Source: Candidatus Saccharimonadota bacterium (GTDB lineage Bacteria; Patescibacteriota; Saccharimonadia; Saccharimonadales; Saccharimonadaceae). From it: DNA of 45,378 bases. The stretch covers positions 1 to 45,378 of the forward strand of contig JAFQYO010000018.1 of assembly GCA_017406405.1 (NCBI GenBank). The letters are read 5' to 3'. The notes below the pieces were generated by a model. It did no database searches, was not told where the DNA came from, and saw nothing but the letters and a program-made list of their open reading frames with translations. Positions 4,648-45,043 of the stretch are shown here, one piece after another. The number at the start of each line of letters is the position of its first letter. Positions within the stretch are counted from its first letter, which is position 1. The position numbers and the translations under genes were made by a program.

Positions 4648-5097
4648 TTATTTATCTTTTGCCTCCGCAAGGGGGCTTTTTTTATGTTTATAGTCTTCTA
4701 TTGCTTTATGGAGGGCTTGGTGGCCGAGGATAGAGCAGTGAAATTTGTGTTCCGGGAGACCGCCGAGAAAATCGCAAATTTCTTTCGCGGTGATTTTGTC
4801 CGCATCTTCGAGCGAACGACCTTTTGCGAGCTCGGAAAGGGCGGAAGTCGAAGCGATTGCACTCGCACAGCCATAAGTTTTCCAGCCAATATCAGAAATG
4901 TATTCTTCCCCGTTTTTCGCGCCGACCTTGATTTTTATGAGCATCTGGTCGCCACAAATCGGGTTTCCGACGATTCCCTCTCCGTCGGCTTTGAATTTTC
5001 TTTCGTCGCCCATGAGAAAATTGCGCGGGTTTAGAAAATGGTCTTTTACGATTTCTGTGTAAGCCCAAGATTTTTCGAGGGGAGAAGGTTTTGTCAT
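4648..5097 (-). CDS. iscU: Iron-sulfur cluster scaffold protein IscU/SufU type
   Basis: This scaffold accepts sulfur from the cysteine desulfurase and assembles [2Fe-2S] clusters. All ligand residues of the family are visible: Cys48 with Asp50 (GNPICGD), Cys77 (YGCASA) and His120-Cys121 (HKFHCSI). At 149 residues it is slightly longer than E. coli IscU (128), with a Lys-rich C-terminal tail that overlaps a terminator on the other strand. The start ATG overlaps the stop of iscS by 4 nt (ATGA), so translation is coupled and the pair forms a minimal ISC/SUF system. No IscA, HscA/B or ferredoxin gene is beside it. Confidence 0.88.
   Translation of the reverse strand: MTKPSPLEKSWAYTEIVKDHFLNPRNFLMGDERKFKADGEGIVGNPICGDQMLIKIKVGAKNGEEYISDIGWKTYGCASAIASTSALSELAKGRSLEDADKITAKEICDFLGGLPEHKFHCSILGHQALHKAIEDYKHKKSPLAEAKDK
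4661..4683 (+). terminator. Rho-independent terminator after the 71-aa gene
   Basis: GCCTCC-GCAA-GGGGGC forms a six-pair stem with a tetraloop, followed by seven T residues. The element lies inside the 3' end of the convergent iscU gene, where it encodes part of its Lys/Pro-rich tail. Confidence 0.75.
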
Positions 5098-6575
5098 GGT
5101 TGTTCCTTTAGTTTTATGGTTGAGATAGATTGGAGGCGGGAGACAATCGGTTTTAGAGTCTTTATGAGTTTTTTGAGGTCGGATTTTTTTGTGTCGAGGC
5201 CGAGGGAGAAACGAACGGAATTATGGGCGATTTCGGCGTCGCCGGTCATCGACATAATGACATGGGACGGTTCGAGGTCGCCGGAAGCGCAAGCGGAGCC
5301 GGTCGAGACGGCGAAGCCGGCGAGGTCGAGGTAAAGCTGGGTCGATTCGCCTTCGGCAGAGGGGAAAGAGACGTTTAAGATGTTCGGAAGGGATTTGCTC
5401 GGACGAGAAGCTATTTCTTCGGAACGGTTACTGCTTTTTCCATATTGCGAGCTATCACTATCTTTTTCGCTTCGGGAAACTTCAGTCGGATTTCTGTCGT
5501 CGTCCAGTCGTGCAGAGCGCAATGCGCCTCGGGAAACACCGGCCGTCGATTGCGCTCCTTCGTGGTCTCCTCCAGAAATCCGTGAAGTTTTTTTACTCCG
5601 CTCTAAAGACAGTGATAGCTCACCTTTTGACGATTGTTCCGAAGAAATAGCTTCTCGTCCTACTATCGTTTCTTTCGTACCTTCTCGTTCTATCCCTACT
5701 GCCGTGAGTATTTTTGCTGTGGGGAGTTCGCGGAGGATTTCGGAGGCGAGCCAGTCGCGGAGTTTCGCGACCTCCTTATACTTCTTGGGAGTCGAGAAGG
5801 ATTTTTCGGCGACGGCTTTAAATCCGGCGGCGAGAAGTGCGTTTGATGTTCCGGCGCGGCGTTTGTTTTCTTGTTCTCCGCCGAGAATGAGAGGTTTATA
5901 AGGAGCGCCGGTTCGGACGAAGAGCGCGCCGATTCCGACCGGGCCGCCGAGTTTATGAGCGGAGATTGTCAGATAATCAACGCCGAGAGATTTTGTGTCG
6001 AGAGGAATTTTTCCGACGGCTTGAGTCGCGTCGGTGTGGAAGTAAAGCTTTTTTAGGCCCTTTTCTCGATATTCTTTTATTAAAGTTGAGACTTCTTTAA
6101 GGGGCTCGAGGACGCCAGTTTCGTTATTTGCGGTCATGACGGAGATGAGGATTTTTTTCTTTGGAGAGGATTCGAGGAGGAAGTCGAGTTTTTCTTTAAG
6201 GAAGTCGAGCGAAATGACGCCTTCGGAGGAGACGGGGATTTTATAAAGCGGTTCGGCATGTTCTTCGGCGGGAGCGAGGACGGAAGGGTGTTCTATCTTT
6301 GAGACGAAAATCGGACAAGAGTCGAAAATGTTCATGACGGTATTGTTCGACTCGGAGCCGCCGGAAGTAAAGATAATTTCGTTCGGGGAGGCATTCACGA
6401 GATTTGCGACGGATTTTCGCGCGGAGGAGAGGAGGTCGCGCCCGCGGGAACCCGGAGTGTGAAGCGAGGAAGGATTCCCGAGAAGACGGCGTTCAGAAAG
6501 TTCCATGACTTCGAGCATGGCTTTTTTCGCGGAAGGGTCGAGCGGAGAAGTTGCGGAAAAATCTAAATATATCAC
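5094..6575 (-). CDS. iscS: Cysteine desulfurase with an in-frame palindromic insertion
   Basis: This PLP enzyme converts L-cysteine to alanine and delivers persulfide sulfur to IscU. The PLP-Lys motif SAHKLGG (about residue 207), the conserved TDATQAVGK and HTDAT region, GGEQENKRRAGT, and the catalytic Cys loop STGSACASGDLEPSHV (about 429) are intact. Length is 493 residues against about 390-400 for the family. The excess lies between VGIERE and SLPNILNVSF, roughly residues 298-396. It is Ser/Glu/Arg-rich, has no homologous segment in ordinary IscS, and is encoded by a large inverted-repeat element (5401-5660). It would sit on the small domain before the catalytic loop. The start is GTG at 6575, 6 nt after TATAAT, which implies a leaderless mRNA. 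Confidence 0.87.
   Translation of the reverse strand: MIYLDFSATSPLDPSAKKAMLEVMELSERRLLGNPSSLHTPGSRGRDLLSSARKSVANLVNASPNEIIFTSGGSESNNTVMNIFDSCPIFVSKIEHPSVLAPAEEHAEPLYKIPVSSEGVISLDFLKEKLDFLLESSPKKKILISVMTANNETGVLEPLKEVSTLIKEYREKGLKKLYFHTDATQAVGKIPLDTKSLGVDYLTISAHKLGGPVGIGALFVRTGAPYKPLILGGEQENKRRAGTSNALLAAGFKAVAEKSFSTPKKYKEVAKLRDWLASEILRELPTAKILTAVGIEREGTKETIVGREAISSEQSSKGELSLSLERSKKTSRISGGDHEGAQSTAGVSRGALRSARLDDDRNPTEVSRSEKDSDSSQYGKSSNRSEEIASRPSKSLPNILNVSFPSAEGESTQLYLDLAGFAVSTGSACASGDLEPSHVIMSMTGDAEIAHNSVRFSLGLDTKKSDLKKLIKTLKPIVSRLQSISTIKLKEQP
5401..5660. repeat. Nested palindromic element inserted in frame in iscS
   Basis: Arms 5401-5425 and 5636-5660 are exact 25-nt reverse complements. Inside them, 5449-5459 pairs exactly with 5611-5621 (11 nt). 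5480-5495 pairs with 5574-5587 (14 pairs around a 2-nt bulge), and 5515-5523 pairs exactly with 5549-5557 (9 nt). The arms are collinear, so the whole 260-nt unit can fold as one long hairpin in either strand. It is translated in frame within iscS as about 87 residues and stands where IscS proteins normally have a short loop. No terminal inverted repeats with target-site duplication and no transposase are visible. The design resembles the Rickettsia palindromic elements that insert into protein-coding genes, by analogy only. Confidence 0.85.
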
Positions 6576-14081: not shown

Positions 14082-14672
14082 TTAAGCCCCTTTCTTTTTA
14101 TATTTTTCGACGCAGGCGGGGCAAAGGGCGCGATATTCGATTTCGGTCGTACCGTCGTCGATGAGGACGTCAGGGCCGTCGAGGACAAGTTTTCCGTCGA
14201 GGAAGCGACAGTTACAGGTCGCTTTTCTGCCACATTCGCAGATAGTTTTTAGTTCTTCTATGTCGTGGGCGATTTGGAGAAGACGAGTGGCGCCTTCGAA
14301 ACCGCCGTCTTCGAGCCGGAAATTTAGGCGGAGGCCGTAGGCCATAACGGGGATATCGAGCTGGATGGTGATTTGCATAAGCTGGTCGACTTGGGCGGGA
14401 GTGAGGAACTGTGCTTCGTCGATAAGCACGCAGGCGACGCCCGCAAAATCTTGAGCAATTTTTTCAAATAGGTCGGTTTTTTTGTCGAAACAAAAGTCGG
14501 TTTCGCGTTCAGGGCCGATTCTCGTCAGGAGTTTTGTGCCATTTTTTGTGTCGGTTTTGGGTTTGATGACGCAGACTTGATGGCCGCGTTCTTCGTAATT
14601 AAAGGCGACTTGGAGGAGTTGCATCGTTTTTCCGCAACCCATCGCGCCGTAACGAAAATATAACTTTGCCAT
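14082..14672 (-). CDS. tdk: Thymidine kinase, type II
   Basis: It phosphorylates thymidine to dTMP. P-loop RYGAMGCGKT (residues 7-16), Walker B-like LIDEAQFL, and the zinc-binding cysteines CECGRKATC and CPAC identify the class II enzyme. Length 196 is normal. The first 74 nt overlap the 3' end of the upstream secreted-protein gene, and the promoter (TGATACAAT, 9 nt before the ATG) lies within that gene. The start cannot move downstream because the P-loop begins at residue 8. With tmk it forms a two-gene dTDP salvage operon. Confidence 0.92.
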   Translation of the reverse strand: MAKLYFRYGAMGCGKTMQLLQVAFNYEERGHQVCVIKPKTDTKNGTKLLTRIGPERETDFCFDKKTDLFEKIAQDFAGVACVLIDEAQFLTPAQVDQLMQITIQLDIPVMAYGLRLNFRLEDGGFEGATRLLQIAHDIEELKTICECGRKATCNCRFLDGKLVLDGPDVLIDDGTTEIEYRALCPACVEKYKKKGA

Positions 14673-44906: not shown

Positions 44907-44982
44907 GCCGCTATAGCTCAGTTGGTAGAGCGTCGCCATGGTAAGGCGAAGGTCACCAGTTCAAACCTGGTTGGCGGCTCCA
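44907..44982 (+). tRNA. tRNA-Thr (anticodon GGT)
   Basis: The cloverleaf is complete: acceptor GCCGCTA/TGGCGGC (one G-U), D-arm GCTC/GAGC, anticodon stem TCGCC/GGCGA with loop ATGGTAA (GGT at 44940-44942), T-arm ACCAG/CTGGT, discriminator T, and encoded CCA. It reads ACC/ACU codons. A terminator follows. Confidence 0.93.
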
Positions 44983-44993
44983 TATAGCATCAG

Positions 44994-45043
44994 AAACACC
45001 TCGTTTCATTTAGTCAATTGACTACGTGAGACGAGGTGTTTTT
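44994..45043 (+). terminator. Long palindromic terminator after tRNA-Thr(GGT)
   Basis: AAACACCTCGTTTCA pairs with TGAGACGAGGTGTTT (one G-U), with an inner TAGTCAATTGACTA palindrome, then Ts. Outside it, CGGCTCCA (44975-44982, the tRNA 3' end) is reverse-complementary to TGGAGCCG (45047-45054). Nothing else is seen in 45055-45145. Confidence 0.8.

Follow-up and report, generated by a model that had tools for sequence, protein, structure and literature searches.

The window analyzed here, a stretch of 45,378 nucleotides, is contig C16 of a 698-kb Saccharibacteria genome (G000). Its minus strand carries a gene for an IscS/NifS-like cysteine desulfurase and, directly downstream, a NifU/IscU-like gene, which together form an intact operon (Table 1). 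A nested palindrome is located inside the iscS reading frame and represents the only long in-gene palindrome of the window. In a 200-kb sample combined with the window, covering about 35% of the genome, no long in-gene palindrome was found beyond those in iscS and dnaX.

Table 1. Features of the iscS locus, in window positions; 5' and 3' refer to gene orientation
Feature	Position	Strand	Remarks
NifU/IscU-like gene	4648..5097	-	overlaps the iscS stop codon; named from its sequence, not from a model
iscS/nifS-like cysteine desulfurase, 493 aa, GTG start	5094..6575	-	ORF; PF00266; NifS/IscS models of NCBIfam; cysteine desulfurases in the PDB
Nested palindrome, 260-nt composite	5401..5660	-	in the iscS reading frame
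Entire additional segment compared with orthologues, 291 nt = 97 codons (IEREG...EEIASR)	~5403..5693	-	17 relatives; 4r5f/4eb5
Module A 5' arm, GGACGAGAAGCTATTTCTTCGGAAC	5636..5660	-	arm and adjoining flank (to 5685) also present in the dnaX copy
Module A 3' arm	5401..5425	-	perfect inverse of 5636-5660
Module B 5' arm	5605..5621	-	outer arm of type I, specific to this copy
Module B 3' arm	5449..5465	-	inverse of 5605-5621, 16/17
Type I element core, encodes RISGGDHEGAQSTAGVSRGALRSARLDDDRNPTE	5467..5598	-	77-87% identity to cores in congeners
Conserved hairpin tip, TCGACGGCCGGTGTTTCCCGAGGCGCA	5523..5549	-	within the type I core

The initial annotation of this locus had described exact inverted repeats of 25 nt as outer arms and three further arm pairs inside, and both descriptions held. 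The arms of module A are complementary in 25 out of 25 nt (100%). Minimum-energy folds added two more nested stems to those of modules A and B, ACTTCA.GGATTTCT/AGAAATCC..TGAAGT and GAGCGCAAT/ATTGCGCTC, giving a total of four nested pairs from arm comparison and folds. The fold energy of the palindrome corresponded to a z-score of -10.25 as RNA and -9.7 as DNA, and none of the shuffled sequences reached values that low. The structure is a composite in which the module A hairpin encloses a second hairpin element, termed type I, with its own arms (module B) and a conserved tip. Rfam models gave no match at the elements.

As the initial annotation also stated, the frame runs through the palindrome: the 493-codon reading frame stays open, with the SAHKLGGP motif containing the PLP lysine upstream and the Cys loop STGSACASG downstream. 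The active-site motifs are retained, and the insert lies ahead of the Cys loop. The extra segment is real, although its length, previously given as about 90 residues, amounts to 97 amino acids between ILTAVG and PSKSLPN according to the alignments. IscS2 proteins 4r5f and 4eb5, the best solved relatives, have just 6 residues at this site (chain positions 275-280). Comparison with related IscS proteins had been suggested as a check, and an insert of the window type was present in 0 out of 17 aligned relatives. Alignment with these relatives and with 4r5f/4eb5 placed the insert in a short, length-variable loop ahead of KSLPN. A single-sequence AlphaFold2 model covering the insert reached a pLDDT of 37, too low for use. 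The designation of the desulfurase as essential was not established; a second NifS-like gene of the same genome (C17:6125-6949) encodes a 37% similar desulfurase.

Two further observations were made apart from this insert. The iscS gene of genome G134 (locus L131) encodes a different insert, about 27 residues long and at another position of the protein; it is rich in K, N and Q and non-palindromic (fold z 0.1). In the window, an intergenic, near-perfect 24-bp palindrome (AAACACCTCGTTTCATTTAGTCAA...) is located at 44994-45041, approximately 15 nt past a tRNA gene (44907-44979), and no open frame extends across it.

Copies of the type I element and a second palindrome family

The initial annotation had proposed a search for copies at other loci, and such copies were found in the same genome and in congeners. 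A second, paralogous copy resides in dnaX of the window genome. It has the arms AGGACGAGAAGCTTTCTCTTCGGAAC/GTTCCGAAGAGAAAGCTAATCGTCCT, is read in the same frame as the iscS copy, and shares with it the peptides RISGGDHEGA and KE.IVGREA.SSE. In congeners, the type I core occurs in frame in tatD (G134), dnaX (G226), der (G213), obg (G356) and twice in valS (G343), and all genic copies sit in open frames. Intergenic relatives were identified in G134, G356, G214 (nine copies) and G251. The cores comprise about 132-141 nt (element about 140 nt), and the identity given in Table 1 refers to the copies in der, dnaX, valS (both copies) and obg and to one intergenic copy. Two matches in the window genome, G000:C10:8942 and G000:C14:51885, looked like chance and were dropped.

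The type I tip is restricted to 7 out of 394 genomes of the family, all belonging to one of its 61 genera, and the reversed control gave no match. Exact tip matches in GTDB r220 derived solely from Candidatus Saccharibacteria of goat and sheep intestine. Alignments of IscS, ValS, Der and LeuS revealed empty orthologous sites in relatives.

Genus-wide alignments of ValS, Der and IscS uncovered other inserts in the same loops. These belong to a second palindrome family with the tip CCCGTRRCGACGGG (tip-2) and are nested palindromes as well. The tip-2 pattern matched 735 times in 105 genomes of the genus versus 7 matches for the reversed pattern. At least one match was found in 87 of these genomes, with a maximum of 39 per genome, and the tip is also present in other genera of the family and absent from the window genome. 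From six genomes, 60 copies were sampled, counting as genic those inside frames of at least 150 codons: 55 are in-frame insertions within genes, 5 are intergenic, and none is out of frame. Host genes, named from their sequences, include LeuS, ValS, IleS, Obg, TsaD, GyrA and Der. The IscS of congener G202 carries an insert of this family at the same loop position as the insert of the window protein. There are at least two palindrome families, and several families nest in one another. Being stop-free in all six frames was considered as a special property of the tip-2 core and discarded, since the core is barely more open than shuffled sequences of the same GC content.

Several degenerate or truncated copies were noticed. 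LeuS of the window genome (L044, G000:C8:99831-102851) carries at about 1490-1540 a decayed right half of type I in frame (VVKKNPTEFSCTKK), in the loop where three congeners have intact inserts of the second family. In the first loop of ValS of G134 (L153), an in-frame single arm fragment (GTTTTCTCGATTCTTCTCCTGAGTGTCATAAAGAA) of the intergenic elements of this genome was found. A group of type II copies (L080, L086, L091-L093) is situated at contig ends of G214. These near-identical copies probably broke the assembly, so that the copy number in this genome is underestimated.

One may ask whether the insert serves the host as a functional peptide or domain, for instance as a regulatory loop or stress switch, and is retained for that reason. 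The type I peptide is indeed recognizably similar across several proteins and always read in the same frame. However, variability among coding type I copies peaks at the second codon position (0.258, compared to 0.178 and 0.172 at the other two positions), which indicates that the DNA rather than the peptide is conserved. The common frame of all genic copies is explained by stop codons in most other frames, whereas members of the second family are read in several frames and in both orientations. Furthermore, the host enzymes are unrelated, the distribution is patchy, and Pfam gave no match to the insert peptides. Neither NCBIfam nor Pfam searches supported a known peptide or domain as origin of the insert. 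We therefore regard a host function of the peptide as highly improbable. Neutrality of the peptide is presumed, and translation of the insert is probable in view of the open frame.

All genomes compared are assemblies without reads. They are metagenome-assembled, and palindromes and repeats end some of the contigs, as in G214, which might point to an assembly or binning artefact. The elements, however, occur in different genomes and genes and always in frame, they share cores with different flanks, and the same records turn up in an independent collection (GTDB r220). An artefact is hardly conceivable on these grounds.

Locus-specific inverted arms and a proposed mode of insertion

Past the shared core, the stems extend into outer arms of 10-22 bp that match each other and show no match to the arms of other copies. 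For the seven type I copies tested, own arm pairs scored 13-19, compared to a mean of 6.05 and a maximum of 9 for swapped pairs. In the tip-2 family, own pairs had a mean of 10.45 versus 7.24 (sd 0.25) in 5000 within-genome permutations, the maximum of which was 8.33; in a first arm test, 17 out of 60 tip-2 pairs failed to exceed the 95th percentile of swapped pairs. Unrelated arms were found even on copies whose cores are 94-95% identical. In iscS only module B is copy-specific. The module A arms are shared with dnaX and hence not locus-specific, and module A seems to be a hairpin that was already present when type I was inserted.

Native and copied arms were compared in the tip-2 family. At LeuS site A, the filled gene of G201 is 84 nt (3 x 28) longer than the empty gene of G204; its left arm consists of the conserved GAEIEF codons and its right arm is their inverse. 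LeuS site B is filled in three genomes, all with different arms, and in each of them the arm inverts the conserved A.RHR codons of the same genome. A further insertion in G204 (L240, G204:C1:80001-97000, minus-strand position 14662) is located between convergent genes. Here one arm encodes the end of one protein and the other arm that of the second, so that both terminate in ENRQAL*, which represents a way to copy a C-terminus from one gene onto its neighbor. Where conserved residues mark the native side, one arm is native gene sequence and its partner is a newly made inverted copy. The LeuS sites and the G204 insertion thus indicate that one flank is duplicated in inverted orientation, the product being either X - rc(Y) - element - Y or the mirror-image arrangement. 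This result was extended to the family found in the window, because type I arms are likewise copy-specific. At the aligned filled and empty sites, the latter coming from species far apart at the DNA level and including no near-identical-strain insertion, no direct target duplication was noticed and an inverted flank copy was seen instead.

Alternatively, the outer arms could be older than the insertion if elements enter the loops of pre-existing hairpins such as terminators or earlier palindromes. Nesting would agree with this, as in iscS, where A contains B and B contains type I, or in the type II copy of L084, and many intergenic copies lie just past genes, where terminators sit. The empty LeuS A sites of other species (L245, L266, L044), however, lack the arm pair, and at both LeuS sites one arm matches conserved codons of the very genome that carries it. 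Intergenic copies have AT-rich arms, unlike terminators, and perfect hairpins of 15-20 bp are improbable to have existed beforehand in dozens of housekeeping genes. Arms that predate the insertion are clearly unlikely. In L084 itself (G251:C11), the right arm of the type II element is interrupted by some 75 nt of additional inserted sequence, which makes this a nested insertion.

The evolution of the stems is informative with respect to a second alternative, a normal insertion followed by template switching during replication, which would have corrected and extended a quasi-palindrome into symmetric arms. In type I stems, 15 out of 46 pairs have two-sided changes and one-sided G-U pairs are almost lacking, as expected of a process at the DNA level and not of selection at the RNA level. 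The predominance of two-sided Watson-Crick changes fits template switching, a process cited for coding palindromes (PMC6649704). On the other hand, arm pairs were nearly universal in the sample, including young-looking copies with 94-95% identical cores, so the arms look like part of the insertion. Asymmetric bulges in the core were left uncorrected. The conservation of these bulges also implies that the whole arm is not remade at each move. Overall, we consider symmetrization by template switching after a normal insertion rather unlikely.

Most probably, the composite iscS segment consists of selfish, non-autonomous palindromic elements, which were inserted by a snap-back process and persist as an in-frame, translated loop extension. 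In such a process, hairpin DNA would join a broken or nicked target end. The fold-back 3'-end may then prime synthesis on its own strand, whereby about 10-22 nt of the flank would be copied in inverted orientation, and rejoining of the product would yield X - rc(Y) - element - Y. Gene-breaking insertions would be lost, whereas stop-free insertions of a multiple of three nucleotides in a tolerant loop could persist. Self-primed copying would also contribute to the symmetry of the stems. Comparative sequence data document mobility, multiplicity, frame preservation, locus-specific inverted arms, a native beside a copied arm, and paired stem changes. A hairpin-capped or snap-back intermediate is presumed, with host replication or repair as the likely engine, and joining of a hairpin to one DNA end with self-priming seems to be the simplest process giving the observed product.

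The more general proposition is that Saccharibacteria harbor a class of hairpin mobile DNA which is inserted by a self-primed or hairpin-capped process, duplicates 10-22 bp of one flank in inverted orientation, has no obvious transposase and mainly adds in-frame sequence to housekeeping genes, a large share of the lineage-specific loop insertions being fossils of selfish DNA. On this proposition we are evenly divided.

Relation to known palindromic elements and candidate mobilizers

In-frame palindromic selfish DNA has been known from Rickettsia, Wolbachia and single reports elsewhere. The initial annotation compared the iscS insert to Rickettsia palindromic elements (RPE). Our data support this reading as largely right but understated, since the phenomenon extends across the genus and single genomes can hold dozens of copies. 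The insert works like an RPE in kind, being palindromic, multicopy, in frame and absent from orthologues, but is not an RPE by sequence: among the NCBIfam matches of six host proteins with E<=0.1 (for two of them the best 25), there was no RPE family. We do not claim homology to RPEs; the likeness lies in the mode of action. The elements of Rickettsia (Ogata 2000, 2002) and Wolbachia are likewise multicopy palindromes of the 100-150 bp class, occur in frame in unrelated housekeeping genes as well as in intergenic regions, sit at tolerant positions, as the Saccharibacteria inserts probably do, and reside in host-dependent bacteria with reduced genomes (PMC3767692, PMC2229807, PMC10969869). In contrast, Saccharibacteria belong to another phylum, and their elements have no detectable sequence relation to RPEs. 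They are characterized by conserved tips, nested modules and up to 39 tip-2 matches per genome. Copies in Saccharibacteria are mostly unshared at orthologous sites, and the RPE genes of R. japonica differ in this respect. The locus-specific inverted arms may be a further, new feature; the RPE literature examined does not mention such arms.

Other palindromes in coding sequences resemble the Saccharibacteria elements in part. The palindromic coding repeats of Methanocaldococcus jannaschii (Suyama 2005, as cited in PMC2996958) and the PARCELs of Mollicutes are palindromic DNA with coding potential inside genes. PARCELs, however, are tandem amphipathic repeats of 25 aa in membrane proteins, whereas we found single dispersed inserts in housekeeping enzymes. 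Mitochondrial genes of Nematomorpha share long translated inverted repeats and paired evolution of the arms (PMC6649704), but there both arms encode conserved protein, while the core in Saccharibacteria is extra sequence shared between loci. The byp elements of Magnusiomyces mitochondria, according to their citation in PMC6649704, are palindromic insertions inside genes which ribosomes skip; in contrast, the retention of the frame in all 55 sampled intragenic copies in Saccharibacteria is as expected if these are translated. A 2024 review described the same process in other prokaryotes as no more than conceivable. The initial annotation considered a counterpart in this lineage to be new, and the open-access papers searched, which include few subscription articles, contained no report of such elements from Saccharibacteria.

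What appears to be new here is the occurrence in another phylum, where genomes of a genus with many sequenced species carry as many as dozens of copies, and filled and empty sites can therefore be compared statistically. The inverted duplication of one flank provides a concrete signature of the insertion step and gives a clue to the movement of such DNA. It also follows that loops specific to a lineage of Saccharibacteria can derive from parasites instead of being adaptive, a point to consider when their enzymes are annotated, their structures predicted or their evolution interpreted. Some Saccharibacteria are in culture and amenable to genetics (PMC10633639), and this idea is testable if a cultivated carrier turns up.

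REP/REPIN-RAYT systems and MITEs are also non-autonomous multicopy hairpins, and under an alternative explanation the elements would be REP/REPIN-like and depend on a RAYT (Y1 transposase) for their movement, or a reverse transcriptase would mobilize them. The similar hairpin size and the frequency of reverse transcriptase genes in the genus would be compatible with this, and our searches for a mobilizer covered both enzymes. Y1 transposase (PF01797) was not found above the cut-off in any of 16 genomes, among them G134 and the seven other carriers of the first family, although the controls were positive. Reverse transcriptase genes were present in 12 out of 18 high-copy versus 11 out of 17 zero-copy genomes, i.e. 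they were not associated with copy number, and none was detected in three of the richest genomes (G355, G351, G247). The flank duplication noticed in Saccharibacteria is inverted and not direct, a putative difference from REP/REPIN-RAYT systems and MITEs. Both enzymes were rejected as mobilizers, and this explanation is largely refuted and very unlikely. A virus as carrier was also dismissed, three element motifs having no exact match in IMG/VR.

The search for mobilizers additionally provided an overview of the reverse transcriptases of the genus. Genes of this type, encoding about 330-440 aa, were detected in 30 out of 43 genomes with up to 5 matches each (e.g. G000:C14:38303-39007 and L273-L282), and their size suggests that they may belong to diversity-generating retroelements.
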